NCBI RefSeq assembly: GCF_002214185.1
Contig: NZ_CP022161.1
Span: 10,485,486 to 10,549,485 of the forward strand
Direction of reading: 5' to 3'
Source: Streptomyces capitiformicae
GTDB taxonomy: Bacteria; Actinomycetota; Actinomycetes; Streptomycetales; Streptomycetaceae
DNA length: 64,000 nucleotides
The position numbers and the translations under genes are program-made. Below are positions 29,375 through 47,164 of the stretch, in pieces. The notes under the pieces were generated by a model. The model ran no database searches and was not told the DNA's origin. It saw nothing but the letters and a program-made list of their open reading frames with translations. Numbering within the stretch: position 1 is the first letter of the stretch; each line of letters opens with the position of its first letter.

Positions 29375-30982
29375 ACTCTGCGCTCGGGGGATGTGTTCGT
29401 GCCTGGCTCGCGTCGCTACGACAACCCGGCCGCCTACCTGTTCAAGCCCGCCCAGTGGGAGACGCACCGTACGGAGTTCTGCCACCTGGTCGGCAAGAGC
29501 CCCGACGCCTCGGAGGCCCTGCCGCTGGTGATGGACGAACTGGATGAGGCCCTCACCGACCTGGAGGAGGTACTCAAGCGCGGCGACGGGCCGGTCCGGC
29601 TGAACGACGACGGGGAGCTGGTCATCTCCCCGCTGACCGCGGAGGACATCCCTACCGAGGCCGAGGACCTGCACGCCGAGCTGGAGCGGATGCTGCCGAA
29701 CGTGCCGATCGCCTCGCTGCTGGTGGAGATGGACCGGCACACCGGTTTCCTGGACTGCTTCGTCCACGCCGGCGGCAAGCAGGCCCGTTCCCCGCAGCTC
29801 AAAAGGAATCTGATCGCCTGCCTCATCGGGCTCTCCACGAATCTGGGTCTGCACGGGATGGCCGCGTCCTGCGGCATCCCGTACGACGTGCTGGCGTGGA
29901 CGGCGGAGTGGTATATCCGTGAGGAGACGCTGCGCGAGGCGAACATCTGCCTGGTCAACTACCACCACCAGCTGCCGGTGACGGCGATGTTCGGCTCGGG
30001 CACGCTGTCCTCCTCGGACGGGCAGCGGTTCCCCACCCGGGGCAAGTCGATCACCGCCCGGCACCTGAACAAGTACTTCGTGTCCGAGGGCATCTCCACC
30101 TACACCCACGTCTCCGACCAGCACTCCACGTTCGGCACGAAGGTCATCGTGGCCACGCACCGTGAGGCCCACTATGTGCTGGACGAGATCCTGGGCAACG
30201 CCACGGACCTGCCGATCACCGAGCACGCCACCGACACGCATGGCGTCACCCTGGTCAACTTCGGCCTGTTCGACCTGGTCGGCAAGCAGCTCTCCCCGCG
30301 CATCCGCGACCTGGGCAAGATCACGCTGTACCGGATGGGCGCCAAGGCCGACTACGAGGGGCGGTTCCCGAAGGCAGGACCGCTGCTGACGAAGAAGGCC
30401 AATCTCGACCTGGTCGCCGACCACTGGGACGACCTGCTCCGTCTCTCAGGGTCGCTGAAGTATGGGCACGCCACCGCTTCCCTGATCGTCGGCAAGCTCT
30501 CCGCGTCCTCCCGGCAGAACGCGCTGGCCGCCGCGCTCAAGGAGTACGGGGCGATCAGGAGGACGATCTACGCGGCGAAGTACCTGTCGGACGAGGGTTA
30601 CCGGCGCAAGATCGCCCGGCAGCTGAACAAGGGCGAGTCCCTCCACGCCCTGCGCCGCCAGCTCCACTACGCACGCGAGGGCAAGGTCACCCGCCGTCAG
30701 CCCGAGCAGCAGAGCGAGCAGGCATGGTGCCTGACCGTGGTGACGAACGCGGTCGTTTGTTGGCACACCGAGTACATGGGCCTGGCCGTCGGCGAACTGC
30801 GGGGCGCCGGCCGCGAGGTGGACGCCGAGGTCCTGGCGCACATCTCTCCGGCCCGCAGCTCGGTGGTCAACTACTACGGCTCCATCACCGTCGACTACGA
30901 ACACGAACTGGCCCAGCTTGACGAACAGGGCCACCGGCCGCTGCGAACCGCAGCCGTGGACGAGCCCGGAGCCGGGCTGTAA
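29375..30982 (+). pseudogene. Tn3-family transposase, C-terminal half
   Basis: About 535 residues of a Tn3 transposase that would normally be close to 1,000. It starts within LRSGDVFVPGSRRYDNPAAY. The catalytic core includes LLVEMDRHTGFLDCFVHAGG with its acidic residues, HGMAASCGIPYDVLAW, VSDQHSTFGTKVIVATHREA with a core Asp, and LNKGESLHALRRQLHYAREG. The N-terminal DNA-binding half and left terminus are missing, so transposition would need help in trans. The stop is at 30980. Confidence 0.92.
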
Positions 30983-32810: not shown

Positions 32811-32922
32811 TTTCATAGGTGTTTCGCCTGTGAAACACCGTCACCCGGTGGACGCGTCCAGGGCGAACCGTGTTTCATGAGTTGTTGCAAACGGCTCGAC
32901 AGTTTGAAACCACTCATGAAAC
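32811..32922 (+). promoter_or_regulatory. Probable Tn3-type res site with three resolvase subsites
   Basis: Three inverted repeats with TTTC/GAAA-type arms lie just upstream of the resolvase: TTTCATAGG...CCTGTGAAA (32811-32835), GTTTCATGAG...TGCAAAC (32872-32892) and GTTTGAAACC...TCATGAAAC (32902-32922). Number, size and place match the three-subsite res of Tn3 elements, where resolvase recombines cointegrates and represses its own gene. Confidence 0.7.
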
Positions 32923-32933
32923 AGTCGGGGCTC

Positions 32934-33806
32934 GTGAGCGACGACTTCAAGCGGGTGGAATCGCACGCCTGCCCGATGTCCACCTGCGCCGCCCCCGCGG
33001 GCTCGCCGTGCCGGACCGGCAAGAGCAAGGTGGCCATCCAGTACCACACCGCCCGCTTCCGACTCGTGCCCCAACTCGCCAAGGCCCTCAACGTGCCGAC
33101 CCCCACCGTGCGCAAGCCCGGCTCCGCCTGGGCCGAGCTGCCCCGGCCGAGGAACGCCGGCGCAGAACCCGTCGGGCACGCCCGCCTGGGGTACGCACGT
33201 GCATCCACCGCCCGGCAGTCCCTCGACTCCCAACTCGACTCGCTCGTCGAAGCCGGGGTTACCCGCATCTTCTCCGAGAAGATCTCCACCCGCGCCACCC
33301 AGCGCCCCGAACTGGACAAGGCCGTCGCCCTCGCCGGCGAACTGCGCGCCTCCGGCGTCCGCGTCACCCTCGTCGTCCACGAGCACAAACGGCTCGGCCG
33401 CGGCATCGAACTGGCGACGCTCGCCGAGGAACTCAAGGCGGGCGACGTCGGCCTGGAGTTCCTCACGGGAGAACTCCAGGGCTCGCACGACCCCTCCGGA
33501 GTCGTGTTCACCGTGCTGGCCGCCCTGTCTGGCATGGAGCGCGAGTACATCCGCGACCGCACCCTCGAAGGCCACGAGTCCGCCCGCAAGCGTGGCAAGA
33601 CCATCGGCGGAGCGGGCGTCACCGACGACCACATGCTCTCCATGGCCCTCCACCTGCGAGAGCATGAGATGAGCCTGCGCGACATCGCCGCCCGGCTCGT
33701 CATCACCACGGGCAAGAAGAAGGGACAGCACCCCTCGCCCGCGACCGTCATGCGGATGCTGCGCGAACACGACGAGCACACAACCGCGATGGAACCCACA
33801 TCCTGA
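32934..33806 (+). CDS. Tn3-type serine resolvase with N-terminal Cys-containing extension
   Basis: A 290-residue resolvase. The core starts at LGYARASTARQSLDSQLDSL, with the catalytic Ser in YARAS. It contains FLTGELQGSHDPSGVVFTVL and the E helix MEREYIRDRTLEGHESARKR, and ends in a HTH-like segment (LRDIAARLVITTGKKKGQHP). An extra 80-residue N-terminus has the motif CPMSTCAAPAGSPC and resembles small zinc-binding modules found fused to actinobacterial resolvases. The start is uncertain: an ATG at 32916 lies inside res, so the GTG at 32934 is given. Confidence 0.88.
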   Translation: MSDDFKRVESHACPMSTCAAPAGSPCRTGKSKVAIQYHTARFRLVPQLAKALNVPTPTVRKPGSAWAELPRPRNAGAEPVGHARLGYARASTARQSLDSQLDSLVEAGVTRIFSEKISTRATQRPELDKAVALAGELRASGVRVTLVVHEHKRLGRGIELATLAEELKAGDVGLEFLTGELQGSHDPSGVVFTVLAALSGMEREYIRDRTLEGHESARKRGKTIGGAGVTDDHMLSMALHLREHEMSLRDIAARLVITTGKKKGQHPSPATVMRMLREHDEHTTAMEPTS

Positions 33807-33863
33807 CCTGCGGCGCAGCCCTTAGCGTTGTTTTTTCGGCGAGTACTACAACTGCCGCCAATT

Positions 33864-34073
33864 GCATCGGATGCGAACTCGCGACACTTTGCGATTCGCC
33901 GTCGACGGGCGGCAGTTCCTTGCCTGTGACCAGGGCCGTTGGGCTCGGAAGGCGGAAGCGACCGTAGCGACTCGCGGTGCGTGATCGCCAGTCGGTGTCA
34001 CTCGTACGACTGACTGACCAGCGGATCGCCCGCCGACTCGCATCAGATGCGGTTTTCTCGCATCCCATGCGAG
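33864..34073 (+). promoter_or_regulatory. Three GCAT-centred palindromes before the recombinase operon
   Basis: GCATC-G-GATGC (33864-33874), CGCATC-A-GATGCG (34039-34051) and CTCGCAT-CCC-ATGCGAG (34057-34073) lie within 230 bp upstream of the operon. The last one covers an ATG at 34067. They look like operators for a dimeric HTH protein, perhaps the one encoded as the second gene, or recombinase binding sites. Confidence 0.55.
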
Positions 34074-34093
34074 TGACGGAAGGTGGTGGACCG

Positions 34094-35221
34094 GTGCGGA
34101 TCGATGTCGTGGCTCCGGGGGCGGCGAGGCTTGAACTGGTGGGCGGGGTTGCCCTGCTGAGGCCGGAGGAGCAGGTCTTCAACGCGATGATGCAGGGCTT
34201 CGCCAACCAGCAGTTGGCCCGGAATCTGGCCCGCTCCACGGTCGAGGGCCGGGAGAATGCGGTGAAGGCGTTCGCCGCGTACGTCAACGCCTTCCCATGG
34301 CAGTGGACGCCGGCGATGGTGGACGAGTGGCTCGGCGACCTGCGCTCGCTGCGCGATCTGGCGCGGTCGACGATCCGCTCGTACTCCGAGGCCGTCCGGG
34401 CCTTCTGCTACTTCGCGACCGACCCGTTGTATGAGTGGGCGGACACCTGCCAGGAACGCTTTGGCACCCACCCGGTGCAGGTCGTGCACGAGTGGAACAC
34501 CGCCGTTCACGTTCAGGACAACGAGTCCGACCCGGCCAAGCGGGCCTTCACCCGAGCCGAACTGCAGGCGCTCTTCGACCACGCCGACGAGCAGGTGGAG
34601 CGCATCCGGGCCCGCGGCCGCAAGGGATGGCTGCCCGCCTTCCGGGACGCGGTGCTGTTCAAGACCGCGTACGCCTACGGGCTGCGGCGCAACGAGACGC
34701 GGATGCTGGACGCCGTCGACTTCGGCCGTAACCCGCACGGCCCGGAGTTCGGCGAGTTCGGTCTGTGCCGGGTCCGCTTCGGCAAGGCGAAGAAGGGCTC
34801 ACCGCCCAAGCGCCGTAGCGTGCTGACCGTGTGGGACTGGAGCCCCGACATCCTGGACGAGTGGTTCACCGAGATCAGGCCCCTGTTCGGCACCGACGGG
34901 AACCCCGCGGCCTGGCCCTCGGAGCGGGGCCTGCGGGTCGGCTGCCAGCGGCTCAACTCCCGCTTCGGCGCCTACCGCAAGGAACTCGGCCTGGACGAGA
35001 AAGGTCTGGATTTCCACTCGCTGCGAAGGTCGTACGTGACGCACTTGATCGAGGACGGCTGGGACCCCCGGTTCGTGCAGGAACAAGTCGGACACGAGCA
35101 TGCCTCCACGACCGCCCTTTATACGTGTGTCGGCTCGGACTTCCGCACCCGCACCCTGCGCCGACACCTGGACGACACCGTCGCCGCCGCTCTGGAGGCC
35201 CAGAACCGGAGGCCGGCGTGA
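34094..35221 (+). CDS. Tyrosine recombinase (first of a recombinase-HTH-recombinase operon)
   Basis: A 375-residue phage-integrase-family recombinase. The core-binding domain (about 30-140) has ARSTVEGRENAVKAFAAYVN. The catalytic domain carries the first Arg in AYAYGLRRNE, HSLRRSYVTHLIEDG (HxLR box), VGHEHASTTALYTCVGSDFR with the second His and the nucleophile Tyr. GTG at 34094 is chosen: GGAAGGTGG is upstream, whereas the ATG at 34067 is inside a palindrome. The stop overlaps the HTH gene by 4 bases. It probably works with the third gene. Confidence 0.9.
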   Translation: MRIDVVAPGAARLELVGGVALLRPEEQVFNAMMQGFANQQLARNLARSTVEGRENAVKAFAAYVNAFPWQWTPAMVDEWLGDLRSLRDLARSTIRSYSEAVRAFCYFATDPLYEWADTCQERFGTHPVQVVHEWNTAVHVQDNESDPAKRAFTRAELQALFDHADEQVERIRARGRKGWLPAFRDAVLFKTAYAYGLRRNETRMLDAVDFGRNPHGPEFGEFGLCRVRFGKAKKGSPPKRRSVLTVWDWSPDILDEWFTEIRPLFGTDGNPAAWPSERGLRVGCQRLNSRFGAYRKELGLDEKGLDFHSLRRSYVTHLIEDGWDPRFVQEQVGHEHASTTALYTCVGSDFRTRTLRRHLDDTVAAALEAQNRRPA

Positions 35222-35550
35222 AACGCCGGGTGGGCTACACCTGGAAGCTGCGCGAAGTGATGGCCTCCCACGGCATGTTCACCACCACCGAGTTGATTCC
35301 GCAGCTGCACGATCGCGGCGTCACCTTGTCCGCATCCCAGGTCCACCGCCTGGTCTCCGGGACTCCCGAACGTCTCTCGCTCCAGGTGTTGGCCGCGCTC
35401 TGCGACATCTTCGAGTGCACCCCGGCCGACCTCGTGACCACCGCCGCCGAGAACGCCGGGGTCCGCAAGACCGCCACCGGCGACCTTCCGACCACGTTGG
35501 CCGCCACCCCGCTGCGGCCCCGCCGAGCGCGGATCCTGCCCGACTCATGA
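35218..35550 (+). CDS. XRE-family helix-turn-helix protein
   Basis: A 110-residue protein with a Cro/CI-type HTH: YTWKLREVMASHGMFTTTEL, then GVTLSASQVHRLVSGTPERL and LQVLAALCDIFECTPADL. GTG start at 35218 overlaps the first recombinase stop; the stop overlaps the next start as ATGA. Such small DNA-binding proteins between two recombinases could act as excisionase, regulator or architectural factor. It could bind the palindromes upstream. Confidence 0.88.
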   Translation: MKRRVGYTWKLREVMASHGMFTTTELIPQLHDRGVTLSASQVHRLVSGTPERLSLQVLAALCDIFECTPADLVTTAAENAGVRKTATGDLPTTLAATPLRPRRARILPDS

Positions 35551-37085
35551 GCCCCGCCTACAAGACGCCTGAGCAGGTCGAACGCTGGCACAAGCGGCAC
35601 TGCGCCCGCTGCGGACGCCACGGATGGTTCGCCGCCCGCTGGCCCGACGGCTATGTCTGCCGCACCTGCCATGACAAGGCCCTGCGCGTCCGTGGATGCT
35701 GCCCCGACTGCGGCGGAGAGCGTGTACTTCCGGGCATCCGACCTGGTGATGGGGCCCTGATCTGCCCGGACTGCGCGGACTTCATGACGTCCTACCGCTG
35801 TTCACGCTGTGGGCATGAGGGCAAACTCCACGGCGGGCGGCTCTGCACCCGCTGCACTCTCGCCGACAAGCTCGCCGAGCTCCTCGACGACGGCACCGGC
35901 CGCATCCGTCCCGAACTCGTCCCCCTGGGCGAGTTGCTGCTGACCGCGGACAGCCCGCTGTCCATCCTGACCTGGCTCTACATGCGCACAGGCAAGACCG
36001 GCTCCGCCGAGGACCTGCTGCGGCGCCTGGGCCGGGGCGAGATCGGTCTGAAGCACGAGGCGTTCCACACCCTCCAGCCCTGGCGGGCCGCTTCCCACCT
36101 GCGTGAACTCCTGATGGCCTGCGGCATCCTGCCCGCCATTGACAAACAGATCTGCCTCTTCGAGGGCTGGCTCACCGGCCGTCTCGCCTCCGTCTCCGAC
36201 CCTGAACACCGTCAGATCGTCCGTCGGTTCGCTACATGGGAGGTCCTGCCGAAACTCCGGGCCCGCGCCGACCGCCGCCCGCTTACCCCCGGCAGCCGCA
36301 AGTACGCCGCAGACCAGGTCAAGCGGGCAGCGTCCTTCCTTGAGTGGCTCGCCGACCACGACCGGACGTTCGCCACTTGCGGCCAGGTCGATATCGACCT
36401 CTGGCATGTCGAGCACAAGGAGCACGAGCGGAACACCATCCGGCCCTTCCTGCTGTGGTGCCAGAACGTCAAGCTCACCCGACGTTTTCGGCTGCCGTCA
36501 CCGCCAACTCGCCGGGCGGCCCCGCTTTCCCAGAACGAGCGCCTGGACCTGCTCGGTCAGCTCCTCACCGACGACAGCTTGCCGTTGCGCAGCCGTGTCG
36601 CCGGGATCATCGTCCTTCTCTATGCCCAACCCTGCACCAGGGTCGTCCGTCTTACCGTCGACGACGTCGTCCACGAGAACGGCCAGGTCCGGCTGCGGCT
36701 CGGCGAGCCGCCCTCCCCGGTGCCCGCGCCGTTCGCCGAGCTCCTCCTGGCCTGGATCGACAACCGCGACAACATGAACACCGGGACGAACCATGGCTCC
36801 CGCTGGATCTTCCCCGGCCGACGGGCAGGTCAGCCGCTGCATCCCTTCGCTCTCTCCGAGCTGATCAACGACATCGGTGTCCCTACGACCGCCAGCCGCA
36901 CGGCGGCGATCCGGCAACAAGTGCTGGAGATGCCCGCTCCCGTCGTCGCTGACGCCCTCGGCTACCACCAGGTCACCACGACCAAGCTCGCAGCGGAAGC
37001 CGGAGGAACCTGGAGCCGTTACGCCCCCGGGGACCCCACACGGTCACCAGCAGGCTGGACTCCTCGGGGGACTGGCGACAGCTGA
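35547..37085 (+). CDS. Second tyrosine-recombinase-like protein with N-terminal zinc ribbons
   Basis: A 512-residue protein. Four CxxC pairs in the first 110 residues (CARCGRHG, CPDCGGER, CPDCADFM, CSRCGHEG, CTRC) suggest two zinc ribbons that bind DNA. A helical core-binding domain follows (about 240-330) and then a catalytic-like domain with LLYAQPCTRVVRLTVDDV (first Arg), LGYHQVTTTKLAAEAGGTWS and a terminal RYAPGD whose Tyr may be the nucleophile. The HxxR box is not clear, so it may be a partly degenerate partner. The last 70 bp are duplicated near 37850. Confidence 0.85.
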   Translation: MSPAYKTPEQVERWHKRHCARCGRHGWFAARWPDGYVCRTCHDKALRVRGCCPDCGGERVLPGIRPGDGALICPDCADFMTSYRCSRCGHEGKLHGGRLCTRCTLADKLAELLDDGTGRIRPELVPLGELLLTADSPLSILTWLYMRTGKTGSAEDLLRRLGRGEIGLKHEAFHTLQPWRAASHLRELLMACGILPAIDKQICLFEGWLTGRLASVSDPEHRQIVRRFATWEVLPKLRARADRRPLTPGSRKYAADQVKRAASFLEWLADHDRTFATCGQVDIDLWHVEHKEHERNTIRPFLLWCQNVKLTRRFRLPSPPTRRAAPLSQNERLDLLGQLLTDDSLPLRSRVAGIIVLLYAQPCTRVVRLTVDDVVHENGQVRLRLGEPPSPVPAPFAELLLAWIDNRDNMNTGTNHGSRWIFPGRRAGQPLHPFALSELINDIGVPTTASRTAAIRQQVLEMPAPVVADALGYHQVTTTKLAAEAGGTWSRYAPGDPTRSPAGWTPRGTGDS

Positions 37086-37104
37086 ATAGGCGAGCCCACC
37101 AGTA
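37019..37104 (+). repeat. Repeat copy A: 3' end of the second recombinase gene
   Basis: About 85 bp covering the last 20 codons (YAPGDPTRSPAGWTPRGTGD) and 20 bp beyond. In the best part (37042-37104) I count 55 identities in 63 bases with copy B. It may be the element's recombination site. Confidence 0.75.
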
Positions 37105-37113
37105 GAGCGTCGG

Positions 37114-37755
37114 CTACAGATCCGCAATCCAAGGGTGTCCCGGGTGTACGCGGGCGAGTAGCTCGGCCAGGGTCTCGCGCTGAGCCGAGGTCATGTGCGG
37201 GACGGTCGCTTCGAAGTCTGTTTGATCCTTTCGGCGGGCGTGCTTGGCCTTGAACAGCAGGACCAGTTCCGGCGCCAGATACGGGATGCCGTCCTGTGTG
37301 TGATGGACGATGTCGCTGTAGGGAAGCCGGATCCTCTCATCGCGTCGGCAGATCCAGGTGTCGCCGTCGTGCGGTTCGCGGAACACGTCGAGCAGGTAGT
37401 TTCCGGTGGCCGGATCTCGAAGCCATGTCTGATGCACGGCGGCCAGCACCTCCGGTGTGGCGTCCTCCCAGATCCGGCCGCTGCCTACCGCGTCGAAGAC
37501 GTAGCCGGGGAAGCGGTGGCGGGCCTCTGGAAAGCTCCCGGCCGGAATCGCGATCTCGATGTCTCCATGAGTGCGCGTCTGCTTGCCGCGGAACAAGTCC
37601 AGCGCCCAGCCCGCGGCCACGTACCAAGGCGTGCTGATCCCGGCGAGCTGCTGCGCGACCTCTTTCGGGGTCCAGCATGATGACCACCTGGCGGGGAGGA
37701 CTTCGATCTCGTCGGGTGACAGCTCGATGCCGCCGCTGGGTAGTTGCTCGCTCAC
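37114..37755 (-). CDS. Aminoglycoside nucleotidyltransferase-like protein
   Basis: A 213-residue protein of the nucleotidyltransferase fold, similar to ANT(2'')-type adenylyltransferases. WYVAAGWALDLFRGKQTRTH is close to the usual WxVAGGWALDLxxGxxTRxHxD; the metal Asp is in GDIEIAI. YLAPELVLLFKAKHARRKDQ near 160 is a further family hallmark. Homologues modify aminoglycosides or are uncharacterised; resistance is not proven here. GTG start. It points towards the recombinase operon and is bracketed by repeats A and B, like a captured cassette. Confidence 0.8.
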   Translation of the reverse strand: MSEQLPSGGIELSPDEIEVLPARWSSCWTPKEVAQQLAGISTPWYVAAGWALDLFRGKQTRTHGDIEIAIPAGSFPEARHRFPGYVFDAVGSGRIWEDATPEVLAAVHQTWLRDPATGNYLLDVFREPHDGDTWICRRDERIRLPYSDIVHHTQDGIPYLAPELVLLFKAKHARRKDQTDFEATVPHMTSAQRETLAELLARVHPGHPWIADL

Positions 37756-37827
37756 CGAAGGAATCTATCAGCGGACTCGAACGTCCCTGGCCGTAGTCGA
37801 TGAAGGCGATGAACGAGTCCTGGAGTT

Positions 37828-37913
37828 GTACGCCGCTGGCGATCACAGCCGGTCACCAGCGGGCTGCGTTCCTCGGGGAACCGGCGACAGTTGAATACGC
37901 GAGCCCACCAGTA
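37828..37913 (+). repeat. Repeat copy B: second recombinase-3'-end sequence
   Basis: Encodes YAAGDHSRSPAGCVPRGTGD and a stop, the same tail as the recombinase in copy A, but without a recombinase gene in front. It must come from a related element or from a duplication made on integration. Confidence 0.75.
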
Positions 37914-37993
37914 TGGGACCCCGTAACGCTCCTGCTGTCACAGCTCTTTTCGGCTTCTGTTCCTGGTCTCCTGTCCTGGCGCCCCTGACGGGG

Positions 37994-38551
37994 TTACAGC
38001 TCAAACTGCAGGTCGACGATGTCCTTGAGTTCCACTTCGAGGCCGTGGGCACGGCGGCCGCCGTCACGGAAGTACACCTCACCCAACGCCTCGGCAGCGA
38101 GATCGCGGAGGTCGTCCTCGTCGACGCCTGCTTCCTGGGCTTGAAGGAGGCGGGCGGCGTGCCGGGGCGGCAGGGCCAGGGTGAGGTGACGCACGCGGGC
38201 CTGGTCGGTGCTGCCGGCGGCGGCGGTGTAGCCGAACCTCGCCTGCACATCGATCATGATGCCGCTCGTGGTGGCCGCAGCCTCCTTCGCCTTCGCCCTG
38301 ATCTGCGGCTGCCAGCGCACGCGGACCTCACGCTCCAGCCGGTCGGCGAGCTCCGGCCGGGGCCTTTTGATCTGGTTCTTCACATACCGCTCCACCGTGC
38401 GCTGGCTGATGCCGAGCAGCTCGGCCACCGGCATCGTCCGGCCGCCGTGCTTCTTGAGGAGGTAACGCATCTGCGCCCCGGCGGACTTGGGGATGGGCCG
38501 CGTGAACGCGCCCTGCACCGCCCTGTCGAGTTCTTCCCCGACCGTGACCAT
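37994..38551 (-). CDS. tpg: Telomere-capping terminal protein Tpg
   Basis: A 185-residue protein, the usual length of Tpg, which becomes covalently joined to the 5' ends of Streptomyces linear replicons and primes end patching. Sequence blocks are FTRPIPKSAGAQMRYLLKKH, the HTH VAELLGISQRTVERYVKNQI, RPRPELADRLEREVRVRWQP, ARFGYTAAAGSTDQARVR and EVYFRDGGRRAHGLEVE. The priming residue reported for TpgL is Thr114; residues 114-115 here are Ser-Thr. The ATG at 38551 matches the family start. It follows tap by 13 bp, the classical order. Confidence 0.95.
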   Translation of the reverse strand: MVTVGEELDRAVQGAFTRPIPKSAGAQMRYLLKKHGGRTMPVAELLGISQRTVERYVKNQIKRPRPELADRLEREVRVRWQPQIRAKAKEAAATTSGIMIDVQARFGYTAAAGSTDQARVRHLTLALPPRHAARLLQAQEAGVDEDDLRDLAAEALGEVYFRDGGRRAHGLEVELKDIVDLQFEL

Positions 38552-38564
38552 CGGCGTAACTCTC

Positions 38565-40436
38565 CTACTCTCCGGTGTCCTTGGCGGTGACCTCGCCGGT
38601 CTTGATGTAGCGGGCGAGGTTGGCGACATGGCCGTCGGCGCCGAGCTGTTCGAGGACGTCAGCCCCCCACAGCACGCTCTGGGTGCCCTCGTGCTTGACC
38701 ATCCCGGGCGAGACGCCGAGCCGGAACGAGCCCGGCACGGTCTTGCCGTCGGCGCCGTACGGCAGCACGTCCAGGGGGCTGGGCCCGTCGGCCGCGTACA
38801 CGGCGCAGTCGGAGAGGACCGCGACCGGGTAACGGCCGGTGGCCGCCGCCAGGGCGAGCATCTTGCGGTGCATGTTGACCCGGGCCCGGGAGATGACGGT
38901 CGCGCGGATGTCCGGGCGCCAGGTCGGGCGGGCGAGGGCGGTCCAGGCCTGCCCCGGCTTCCAGCCGCCCCCGCGTGCCTTCTCCTGCAGCTTGCCGATG
39001 CCGCCCTTCACGGTCATCTTGACCGCGTCCACCACGATCCCCAGCTCCGGATCACGGCTCTTGTAGCCGTTCATCGCCTCCAAAAACTCCTGCGGGGACA
39101 GCTTCTCCGCGACGCCGAGGTCCGCCATGGTGGCGACGTAGGCATCGCGCAGCCGCTTGTACCAGCCGTCCAGGAACCGGCCGCTCTCACGGCGCACCCA
39201 TGCCTCCAGCGGTGTGATGTCGTAGCCGAGCTCGACGGCATACGCCACGGTGGGCGTGGCGTACCAGGCCGGACCGGTCGGGCGTTCGCCGGTCGGCGTG
39301 AACGGGCTGGGCAGCAGCGCGCCGTCGAGGTCACGCCACTGCTTGCCGACCTTCACCCGGGACAGGTCGACGTGGGAGAGGTCGACCAGCCAGGAGCCGG
39401 GCACCGCCGCATCGAAGACCGGGCGGGTGACGTGCACGGGCGGCGTGGCCAGACCGACGACCGCCCCGTTGGCGGCCGCGCCGAAGGCGAGGTTCACATC
39501 CAGGCCGACCAGGTACCGCTGCATGCACTCGGCATCGGTCAGATCCCGCGCCCAGTCGTAGGCCTCCTCGAACAGCCTCTCGCCGGGCCCGCGCACGTGG
39601 AAGCGGGGCAGCTGGTCCAGGACGGGGTGCCCGTCGATCGCCTCGCACGGCGCGGGGTCCACCGGCTCGCTGCCCAGCGAGCCGGGCCGGTGCTCGCGGT
39701 GCCGCCTGCCGCTCTCGTCCGGCTCGCTCGCGCGGGTCGGCGGGCTGAGCGCGGTCATCAGCTGCAGCCCCGTCACGGCGGTGGAGCCGACCGGCGTCAT
39801 CACCCGGGCCGCGTACACCCCCAGCACCCGGGCCAGCTCCGGCGGCGGAAGCTGCGCGGCATGGCCCCAGGCGCGGCCGTCCAGGGCACGCCAGGAGGGG
39901 ATGCACAACTGCACGCACTGCCTGCGGCTGCCCTGGGCGGGGCGGTAGATCCGCGCCCACGGCCCCAGCCCGCGCTTGGTCAGCTGCCAGTCGGCACGCT
40001 CCAGCTGCCTGATGACCTTGTGTCCCTCCGGCAGCCGTCCGGCGAGCCGCTCGGAATCCGACAGGGCGGCGGGCAGCCCGTAGCGTTCACACGCGGCCTC
40101 GGTGAGCACCAGCAGCGGGTCGGCGTCCTTGCCCGAACCGTGCAGCCTCTCCGCCCCGAGCTGCGCCTCGGTGAGCGTCCACTCCACCAGCGCGGGCAGC
40201 GACTTGGCGGGCACGTCCAGGATCAGACCGCCGACGCCGTAGCCGGTCACCTGCCGCTCGGTGTCGGCGTCGAGTGTCACGACCAGCCAGAGGTGAGGCC
40301 TGCGTCGACGACTTGAGAGCCTCTGGCCTGCGGGATCTCGACTAGGGCCGGACGACTCTCTGAAACGTCTGACCTGCTGCTTCTCTGATTCGAGGTCCTC
40401 TGACCTGGCACGCCGCAACTTGATCCGGACACACAT
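38565..40436 (-). CDS. tap: Telomere-associated protein Tap
   Basis: Tap binds the 3' overhang at linear telomeres and brings in Tpg. The clear family part begins at HLWLVVTLDADTERQVTGYG and goes through ILDVPAKSLPALVEWTLTEA, GLGPWARIYRP, LQLMTALSPPTRAS, AFGAAANGAVVGLATPPVHV and PGMVKHEGTQSVLWGADVLE to the stop at 38565. That is about 580 residues; Tap proteins are longer (above 700), with a HTH domain first. Here the N-terminal 45 residues (MCVRIKLRRARSEDLESEKQ...) do not look like it. The 5' end is probably truncated or frame-broken. The start at 40436 is the best ATG, not a secure one. Confidence 0.85.
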   Translation of the reverse strand: MCVRIKLRRARSEDLESEKQQVRRFRESSGPSRDPAGQRLSSRRRRPHLWLVVTLDADTERQVTGYGVGGLILDVPAKSLPALVEWTLTEAQLGAERLHGSGKDADPLLVLTEAACERYGLPAALSDSERLAGRLPEGHKVIRQLERADWQLTKRGLGPWARIYRPAQGSRRQCVQLCIPSWRALDGRAWGHAAQLPPPELARVLGVYAARVMTPVGSTAVTGLQLMTALSPPTRASEPDESGRRHREHRPGSLGSEPVDPAPCEAIDGHPVLDQLPRFHVRGPGERLFEEAYDWARDLTDAECMQRYLVGLDVNLAFGAAANGAVVGLATPPVHVTRPVFDAAVPGSWLVDLSHVDLSRVKVGKQWRDLDGALLPSPFTPTGERPTGPAWYATPTVAYAVELGYDITPLEAWVRRESGRFLDGWYKRLRDAYVATMADLGVAEKLSPQEFLEAMNGYKSRDPELGIVVDAVKMTVKGGIGKLQEKARGGGWKPGQAWTALARPTWRPDIRATVISRARVNMHRKMLALAAATGRYPVAVLSDCAVYAADGPSPLDVLPYGADGKTVPGSFRLGVSPGMVKHEGTQSVLWGADVLEQLGADGHVANLARYIKTGEVTAKDTGE

Positions 40437-40642
40437 CAACTGCTCTCGGACGCGGTATGAAGCAGCGACCGAGAAGGCTTTCGGGGTCCTGGGCGGTATG
40501 CCGGTGGGCGGGCGAGAGCCTGTGGCCCCGCCCGACTGCCGGTGGGTGCGAGGCTTCCCACTTGGCCTTGCTTGCGGCGATGATCGGCTGAGCATGCCGA
40601 TGGCCGTAAGCGCGGCGGCCCGACGCCTGGGAGATCGTTTCA

Positions 40643-45787: not shown

Positions 45788-47164
45788 TCAGTACCAGATG
45801 GAGAACGTGGCGTCGGCCCTGCCGACGGCGCTGGAGATCGGGTCGATGCGCAGCACGTAGTTGTAGTGCCGGATGTAGCGGTCCGGGTAGTTGTGCGAGC
45901 GGAACGACGACCAGGACGGGTCGGCGAGTCCGGCGGTCTTGTGGAAGGTGGCGTCCGCCGCGAACTTCGTGGTGCCGTCGTTGACGTCCAGTCGCAGCTG
46001 GTAGTAGGCGTGCCGCAGGTAGCGGGTCGGGTTGTTGACGGACTGGAAGGAGACGCCGGAGGGGTCGGCCAGTCCCGGCACCAGCTTCCATTGCGAGTCG
46101 GTGTACGGGTCGAAGGGGTACGGGTCGATGCGGCCGATGTAGTCGGCGTGCCGCCAGTATCTGTCCGGGAAGTTGTAGGACTTCAGTCGGTTCCAGGCGG
46201 GCTTGCCCCACTTGGCGACCATGTTGTCGTACACCGTCTGCGGGATCGGCTTGATGTCGGCGTGCTTGGAGTTCAGCGGCTGGGTGTAGACGCGTCGGTC
46301 GGTGGCGGTCCAGGTGCCGGTGGAGAGGTCGTTGGTCTGCCAGGTGTAGAACAGCGCGTTGGCGTCGCCCCACAGGTACCAGGTGCCGTTGGCCTGGGCG
46401 AGGATCGGGCCCTCGATGCCTCCTTGCGGCGCCAGGCCCGAGGTGTAGACGGTGAAGCTGCCGGGACTGAGTGAGGTGGACCTCGCACCCACGAGGCTGT
46501 TGCGGGCCTTGAAGTACAGGTAGTTGACGCCGTTCACGTTCATGGCCAGGGAGCCGTCGATCACGTCGTAGCCCGGGTCGAAGAAGACCTGCGGCGACGT
46601 CACCGTCTGGAAGTCCGTGGTGTAGTTGACCATGATCACGTTGTGCCCGCTGCTGTTGACTGCCGAGTAGATGATGCCGTATTGGCCGCGGGAGGCGTCC
46701 CAGAAGGCTTCGGGCGCCCAGCTGTGGGTGGCCATCGAGTGCAGTTTCAGCAGGCGGTAGTTGTCGAAGGAGCGCAGGTCCGCGGAGTCCCAGACGTGGA
46801 TGACCTGGCTCTGCTTGGTCCAGTCGGTTCCCTTCAGGTTGGTCGCCAGGACGACGAAGGTGCCGTCCTGCTTGGGCAGGATGAAGGGGTCGCGCAGACC
46901 ACCGTCACCCCCGGTCGGGGTCACGACGGGGTTGTTCTGGTTCAGCGGCATCCACTGCAGCGAGTCGGTGCTGACCGCGAGGTGCAGGCCGTAGTCCGTG
47001 CCGAGGCCTCTGGGCGACTGGGTGAAGTAGGCCATGACGAACGGGGAGGCCGTCGCGGCGCTCGCGGACTGGCTACCGATGGTCAGCGCGCCGGTCATGG
47101 ACAGCGGCACGGCCGAGGCCATGCCGAGGAACAGCCGGCGCGACGGGAGGGGGGTTGCGCTCAT
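45788..47164 (-). CDS. Exported GH43-type arabinanase/arabinofuranosidase with AbfB domain
   Basis: A 458-residue Tat-exported protein (SRRLFLGMASAVPLSMTGAL). The propeller domain shows FVMAYFTQSPRGLGTDYGLH, GGLRDPFILPKQDGTFVVLA (catalytic Asp in RDPF), HSWAPEAFWDASRGQYGIIY and GGIEGPILAQANGTWYLWGD (likely acid Glu). The last 140 residues form an AbfB/CBM42 trefoil (SYNFPDRYWRHADYIGRIDP and two similar repeats), which binds arabinofuranose side chains. The ATG at 47164 has TTGGAGG upstream. An operator-type palindrome is 70 bp further upstream. Confidence 0.9.
   Translation of the reverse strand: MSATPLPSRRLFLGMASAVPLSMTGALTIGSQSASAATASPFVMAYFTQSPRGLGTDYGLHLAVSTDSLQWMPLNQNNPVVTPTGGDGGLRDPFILPKQDGTFVVLATNLKGTDWTKQSQVIHVWDSADLRSFDNYRLLKLHSMATHSWAPEAFWDASRGQYGIIYSAVNSSGHNVIMVNYTTDFQTVTSPQVFFDPGYDVIDGSLAMNVNGVNYLYFKARNSLVGARSTSLSPGSFTVYTSGLAPQGGIEGPILAQANGTWYLWGDANALFYTWQTNDLSTGTWTATDRRVYTQPLNSKHADIKPIPQTVYDNMVAKWGKPAWNRLKSYNFPDRYWRHADYIGRIDPYPFDPYTDSQWKLVPGLADPSGVSFQSVNNPTRYLRHAYYQLRLDVNDGTTKFAADATFHKTAGLADPSWSSFRSHNYPDRYIRHYNYVLRIDPISSAVGRADATFSIWY

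Follow-up and report, generated by a model that had tools for sequence, protein, structure and literature searches.

Transposons related to Tn554 have been described from actinobacteria: as the part of the source devoted to them has it (PMC3414803), they encode a typical and a longer tyrosine recombinase in adjacent genes, occur on plasmids and chromosomes, and have a long protein of 611-828 aa; a third protein, if any, is TnpC-like, and the class includes members without TnpC. For Tn554 itself, from Staphylococcus and Enterococcus, two tyrosine recombinases, a small protein and site-specific insertion are given in the pertinent section of PMC10214605, which also presents the SE, GInt and RIT elements, with two or three tyrosine recombinase genes per operon; SE and GInt are reported there to integrate at specific targets. 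In that section SE and GInt are characterized by four conserved genes including Tfp/GinC, RITs by three recombinases, and SE and RIT by (imperfect) inverted terminal repeats. As regards integrons, the passage of the IntegronFinder 2.0 survey that concerns Actinobacteria records no complete one there (PMC9024848). Here we describe a mobile element in a 64-kb stretch of the Streptomyces capitiformicae chromosome (contig NZ_CP022161.1; the whole stretch is called the window below). The element is real and well-bounded: it spans positions 33850-37913 of the window (4064 bp), lies ~0.47 Mb from one end of the 10.99-Mb chromosome, and contains an operon of three genes, designated A (tyrosine recombinase), B (helix-turn-helix, HTH, protein) and C (divergent recombinase), followed by a nucleotidyltransferase gene.

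Comparison of related loci reveals the target and ends of this element, an exchange of cassettes, and breakpoints that fall within or at the end of its right terminal sequence. Taken jointly, these features make it probable that 33850-37913 is a site-specific element of a Tn554-related kind, which targets the terminal inverted repeats (TIRs) of Tn3-family transposons and whose right end is a point where single-gene cassettes are joined, exchanged and stacked.

Ends and target of the element

The right end (RE) is recognizable from a repeated tail. As an earlier note on this DNA had observed, the end of gene C recurs about 0.8 kb downstream: the two 85-nt tail copies, at 37020..37104 and 37829..37913 on the plus strand, are spaced 809 bp apart and agree at 70 of 85 positions (82%), with 55 of 63 in the core, and the repeat is not a matter of chance, since BLASTN returned E-values of 1.4e-17 and 1.8e-18 for it (two tail queries, test set). 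The best-conserved 29 nt of the tail, CGACAGTTGAATACGCGAGCCCACCAGTA, constitute the RE; they start inside gene C, include its stop codon and lie mostly past it. In the first tail copy the RE core (37076-37104) straddles the stop codon at the 3' end of C, while that of the second (37885-37913, no mismatches to the RE pattern) is the outer right end of the element. With up to three mismatches allowed, the RE is present in 79 of 392 genomes and a reversed control pattern in none; in a second draw of genomes, partly overlapping the first, it was found in 33 of 245, all inside the genus, and in none of 18 genomes outside it. Two further properties were considered for this sequence and rejected. Tails do not form attC-like hairpins, as their folding is no greater than that of controls (103 tails with a mean z of -0.26 and 3.9% below -2; 118 control stretches with a mean z of -0.24 and 5.1% below -2). 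Nor does the RE mimic a Tn3 TIR so as to restore a transposon end, since its scores against six TIR types stay at the level of shuffled sequences (z -0.8 to 1.5).

The left end (LE), at 33850..33886 on the plus strand, reads AACT-GCCGCCAATTGCATCGGATGCGAACTCGCGACA and was found again upstream of gene A in relatives. The earlier note had placed the element at 34094..37913; its right boundary holds, and the left one moves outward to 33850, in front of gene A. LE and RE have GAACTSGCGACA in common, as a direct and not an inverted repeat. The LE sequence GCCGCCAATTGCATCGGATGCGAACTSGCGACA stands upstream of A in many relatives, and 17 of 45 oriented loci satisfy a strict version of this pattern. Directly before the LE lie 4 nt that vary between loci, and before these one of several recurring sequences of ~38 nt.

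These ~38-nt sequences, which recur in inverted pairs, are read as Tn3-family TIRs. One of them has 59 matches in 36 of the genomes (199 searched); among 12 pairs of neighbouring matches within 15 kb, 10 are inverted (minus then plus) and 2 are on the same strand. Three of 33 inspected matches continue into the LE, and most others into a sequence resembling CCGAGGCCG. Eight inverted pairs were fetched (L160-L167), five of which contain Tn3 transposase matches (one of only 55 residues), two of these five together with a resolvase.

In the window, the inner part of such a TIR (33821..33849, minus strand) abuts the element on the left; with up to three mismatches allowed, the genome has no other copy of it, and an unbroken counterpart exists in locus L221. 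On the right, the RE is followed by TGGGACCCC (37914..37922, minus strand), which also forms the tip of the L221 TIR. That unbroken TIR reads GAACTAC directly followed by TGGGACCCC; the window reads GTACTAC, then the element, then TGGGACCCC. The comparison thus shows an element inserted ~9 bp inside a Tn3-family TIR, in a fixed orientation with the RE beside the tip, a distance for which we take the TIR to begin at GGGG, like that of Tn3. A search of the genome did not recover the other TIR of this Tn3 transposon. A fuller picture is offered by two other genomes. In G165 the TIR pattern occurs twice: the copy at 40006 is unbroken and has the tip CCGGGTGTGA(G), whereas that at 46402 is a half and runs into an element, after whose RE stands TCACACCCGG, a 10-nt match to the tip; a Tn3 transposase lies between both TIRs. 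G245 is arranged likewise, its tip match being 6 nt long, CCTCGG. Read from these sequences, the order in both is an unbroken TIR, a Tn3 transposase and a second TIR split by the element.

The association extends to a larger set of 118 distinct REs (up to four mismatches), taken from loci that were fetched for their C, RE or TIR sequence; proportions among them are not genome-wide. The tip CCGAGGCCG, which was derived from unbroken TIRs, follows 52 of these 118 REs at 7 or more of 9 positions, as against 3.7 at control offsets. Two other tested tips had been read from RE flanks, so that the pooled three-tip figure (69 of 118 versus 5.3) is partly circular and was not used as evidence. Further, a Tn3 DDE domain lies within 6 kb of 6 of 20 elements with A, B and C (15 genomes), in all six cases on the LE side. 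This Tn3-family target was absent from the earlier note and was found here by comparison. The empty site is the unbroken TIR; an LE-RE junction had been a candidate for it and was rejected, there being no LE motif within 60 bp before any RE examined in loci L079-L108.

The transposon that hosts the element in the window is a Tn3-family one, with a C-terminal transposase fragment of 529 aa at 29393..30982 on the plus strand (PF01526 DDE_Tnp_Tn3, E 1.8e-131, residues 109-496), which a whole-genome search recovers too. A serine recombinase or resolvase at 32877..33806, plus strand (PF00239 Resolvase, E 1e-23), probably belongs to it. Between these two genes lies one for a serine/threonine protein kinase (PF00069; 31054-32763, plus strand), which resembles a Tn3 passenger. 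On the other side, the telomere-protein genes tpg and tap (37994-40595, minus strand; NCBIfam equivalogs, far over cut-off) begin right after the TIR tip.

Cassettes behind and apart from the operon

The gene between the two tail copies in the window (37114..37755, minus strand) encodes a 213-aa PF10706-like nucleotidyltransferase (aminoglycoside-2''-adenylyltransferase, 26.4 bits against a curated cut-off of 21), with the position and opposite orientation that the earlier note had given it. That note had proposed to look in related genomes for the same tail repeat around different cargo, and this is what the comparison brought out: in oriented loci the tail is often present again downstream of C, and cargo varies among loci. 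Nineteen elements were selected by hand for having B and C plus at least part of A and for close relationship, several of them degraded (e.g. L045, L050, L052, L061, L072 and L078); a distant group, mostly without a recognizable RE (L053-L058, L060, L066, L068 and L069), was excluded. In 17 of the 19, window included, another RE follows 497 to 4042 bp past the C stop codon, with differing cargo in between. A single tail without variation in cargo, which would have spoken against the earlier proposal, is hence the exception: 2 of 19 elements, L041 and L049, have an RE only at +19 from the C stop codon and no cargo.

Sorted by a simple rule, the 118 REs comprise 15 that directly end C, 28 that lie behind C with intervening DNA, and 75 without C within 1.5 kb. 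From 36 cargo open reading frames (ORFs) that were prepared, 19 and one other were scanned against Pfam, 11 from behind C and nine from solo sites, at which membership of the ORF in the cassette is assumed; 13 of the 20 proteins have matches (6 of 11 behind C, 7 of 9 solo). The families are diverse: two methyltransferases, NUDIX, APH, a metallo-beta-lactamase fold, AHSA1, Usp, glyoxalase, OmdA/YdeI, CN-hydrolase, DLH, NmrA and DUF6228. Behind C, 26 of 28 cargo ORFs were scored as lying on the minus strand, but this apparent bias was discarded, because the ORF chooser had overlooked a plus-strand methyltransferase in L040 and L045.

One case of exchange comes from this methyltransferase cassette: it is ~98% identical between L040 and L045, as against ~65% for their C genes (96-99% and 47-78% in sliding windows), and identity climbs at GACAGYTGAAAACG and drops to unrelated sequence directly past CCAGTA. 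The earlier suggestion that the 3' end of the recombinase gene serves as the attachment site is supported: one tail repeat borders different cargo in relatives, and divergent recombinase operons have cargo in common, with identity changing within the repeat. The window cassette itself recurs in L172 (94.5% nucleotide identity over 877 bp), behind a different cassette that has its own tail and, by eye, a methyltransferase-like ORF; the 14-kb locus has no match to A or B, and from C it matches just the final 21 residues, which lie in the tail. Incomplete copies of the window cassette were found in L216 and L146. Other cassettes likewise occur both behind C and alone (L050, L067 and L072 with L150; L048, L062 and L145 with L209), L140 and L171 have the last cassette in common and a different one preceding it, and L070 has three REs. 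By these comparisons, cassettes are seen to move apart from the recombinases.

Two loci show rearrangements of their own. In L076 (G197:C1:8832000-8848000) the methyltransferase cassette of L040 and L045 is split by ~1.4 kb with a transposase-like ORF. In L145 (G331:C43:5000-18312), at 6.0-10.7 kb, the element lies between inverted 562-bp copies, 99% identical, of a cassette end, tail and RE.

The recombinase operon, a proposed mechanism and its alternatives

Genes A, B and C overlap stop-to-start at 35218-35221 and 35547-35550, as had been noted before. Gene A (34094..35221, plus strand) encodes a 375-aa tyrosine recombinase with the R..HxxR..H..Y residues (PF00589, E 2e-15); profile comparison matches it to the structures of XerD and IntI4, and H308, R311, H334 and Y343 are invariant across eight aligned sequences. 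Gene B (35218..35550, plus strand) encodes a 110-aa Cro/C1-type HTH protein (PF13443 HTH_26, E 6.9e-17). Three palindromes, GCATCGGATGC (33864), GCATCAGATGC (34040) and GCATCCCATGC (34060), fall at 33864..34070, in and after the LE; by pattern count this interval holds three of the four such palindromes in the window, and similar ones stand upstream of gene A in many relatives inspected. They are candidate operators for B.

Gene C (35547..37085, plus strand) encodes a divergent, zinc-ribbon-like recombinase of 512 aa. Six CxxC pairs in its N-terminal part (C19-C103), together with R456, H474 and Y492, are invariant in 11 aligned sequences. The window's C has no Pfam match at 1e-3, PF00589 is matched by two of the other aligned C proteins (2 of 11), and a profile comparison of C with A gave no match. 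The top Foldseek matches are XerA and XerH, obtained with a low-confidence model (pLDDT 64) that supports a recombinase-like C-terminal half and nothing further. Matches to C, distant ones counted, occur in 163 of 295 genomes of the genus. A protein search returned 648 relatives at E<=0.001 among 7996 scored candidates; among the 120 listed of these 648, most are nameless or hypothetical and few are annotated as integrase or XerD. In G158:C1 and G090:C1 distant C relatives (32-33% identity) are present three per genome with equal or nearly equal scores, which suggests that related elements were recently active.

By comparison, each single-gene cassette ends in its own copy of the RE, and cassettes are joined, exchanged and stacked at that sequence; in the window, the cassette carries the nucleotidyltransferase. 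In the mechanism that we propose as likely, A and C would catalyse the exchange, recombining REs with each other or an RE with the TIR-tip junction, and the intermediate would be a circular cassette, inserted after the last RE and before the TIR tip. The operon and the LE would be controlled by B through the GCATCNGATGC-type palindromes. The pick-up of cassettes at the tail, as formerly suggested, is borne out by comparison as far as the exchange of cargo goes; uptake itself we infer from the loci compared.

On comparative grounds, movement of cassettes at the RE remains the account to which we give better than even chances. A number of observations weigh against it. The breakpoints do not fall at a constant base but differ between pairs (before TTGAAAACG in L040/L045, after CCAGCA in L141). 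In seven loci (L039, L044, L047, L052, L064, L070 and L143; by eye, L047 being doubtful) TIR-tip-like sequence comes after an inner RE, as would be expected of a second insertion and not of the entry of a cassette. At the threshold used, a TIR inner half was found in the 2.6 kb upstream of just 4 of the 75 REs without C, so that most solo cassettes are left without a defined left end. No Tn3 domain lies within 6 kb of 14 of the 20 elements with A, B and C, several of which are on short contigs, and three of the eight inverted pairs (L160, L162 and L163) have no Tn3 match between the repeats. Finally, the catalytic set of C is atypical, with no H before R456 and with Y492 18 residues past H474, and its structure model is poor.

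One alternative, which we regard as rather unlikely, takes the cassettes for non-autonomous derivatives. Each would combine an RE with a pseudo-left end that varies, and would be mobilised in trans directly into Tn3 TIRs, by one-ended transfer or relaxed use of the left end; their places behind C or behind another cassette would arise as these adjoin a TIR tip too. It is favoured by a 588-bp cassette that lies directly against the TIR inner half in L142, L147, L148 and L176 (three of these four loci being recovered independently by the TIR scan) and after another RE in L141. By eye, the left end of this cassette matches the window cassette around the start codon of its nucleotidyltransferase, as though a CGATG inside it had acted as left end, and the variable 4-nt stretch at the left flank of the LE is compatible with a coupling-type insertion. 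The scarcity of TIR halves upstream of solo REs (the 4 of 75 above) counts against this alternative as well.

A second alternative, which we consider unlikely, invokes tandem insertion followed by decay. The element, or a 3' remnant of it, would once have been present a second time downstream; deletions would have stripped this copy of its LE, of A and B and of most of C, so that a stray gene and a tail remained, and cargo would come to be shared through Tn3 transposition or homologous recombination over conserved tails rather than by site-specific exchange of cassettes. The C remnants at outer tails indeed vary, from 34 nt matched in L040 to 45 residues in L064 and 92 residues in L046, and L143 has a whole element in tandem with a 190-residue C fragment. 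As breakpoints differ between pairs, most solo cassettes show no clear left boundary and the seven inner REs precede TIR-tip-like sequence, this account keeps real weight. What it leaves unexplained is that one cassette can stand behind divergent C genes, behind other cassettes or directly beside a TIR half, with the shift in identity located within the RE or at its edge, and also the arrays of different cassettes (L070, L140, L171 and L172); further, the strict LE pattern has no second match in the window past the element's own LE, and the window cassette is without a recognizable second LE. An ordinary coding duplication or chance similarity unrelated to element ends is, lastly, highly improbable and refuted by the relatives: although the window tail also codes for the last ~20 residues of C, the best conservation is in the RE, mostly past the stop codon, the RE and its reversed control differ in genome counts as given above, and flanks switch at the RE end in the pairs compared.

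Comparison with known systems

If cassettes move as proposed, this would be a second, independently built cassette system whose sites need no folding, and a natural route for single genes (methyltransferases, nucleotidyl- and phosphotransferases, hydrolases) into Tn3 transposons and plasmids; the 29-nt RE would then be a marker for finding such cassettes, and the element a test case for a recombinase gene that doubles as its own attachment site. More tentatively, at a little under even chances, we entertain the broader proposal of a cassette-exchange system unrelated to integrons, in which a tyrosine recombinase pair with an HTH partner uses the 3' end of its operon as recombination site, cassettes spread behind the operon and alone, and the platform rides Tn3 inverted repeats, within a phylum for which no complete integron was reported. 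No description of such a system was found in the open-licence PubMed Central literature searched.

Among known systems, the SE, GInt and RIT elements have no cassette units in the section of PMC10214605 that describes them. The IntA-Tfp-IntB-SRAP set of SE and GInt is not present here: the middle gene is an HTH gene, and there is no fourth conserved gene, because the gene after C differs between loci. Where SE and RIT have inverted terminal repeats, the motif common to LE and RE is direct. The likeness to integrons lies in a tyrosine recombinase with an adjoining site, at which, on comparative evidence, exchangeable and mostly single-gene cassettes follow; recombinase-less cassettes elsewhere recall the CALIN arrays, as these are outlined in the relevant passage of PMC9024848. 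In contrast to integrons, there are two recombinases, the sites are direct repeats without excess folding, arrays are short, and the site overlaps the stop codon of a recombinase gene. With NCBIfam models of the integron integrase, A reaches 40.5 of 265 and 23.7 of 435 cut-off bits, and C has no match at 1e-3. Class 1 integrons are also carried in Tn3-family transposons. Since an IntI-type integrase is missing and tails fold no more than controls, the system is integron-like and not an integron.

In Tn554, cargo follows the last gene of the operon and precedes the right end. The present element differs from it in its Tn3 TIR target, in having HTH_26 in place of TnpC and in the exchange of cargo at the RE; as regards the 6-bp footprint that Tn554-type insertion brings from the donor's left flank to the right junction, what is observed here is a variable 4-nt stretch at the left junction. 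Site-specific insertion, a Tn554-like trait, is found here as insertion inside Tn3 TIRs near the tip. In gene set and habit, the element comes closest to the actinobacterial Tn554-related class. There are differences: A, with 375 aa and PF00589, corresponds to the typical recombinase, whereas C, with 512 aa, is shorter than the long protein and has CxxC pairs, and the middle gene B is of the HTH_26 type as against the TnpC-like protein of the class; moreover, cassettes, tail repeats and a Tn3 TIR target do not figure in the part of PMC3414803 that describes it. The absence of TnpC would not exclude membership, because members without it are included in that description. The distant C relatives (~30-35% identity), many of them in longer frames, may themselves be the long recombinases of this class.

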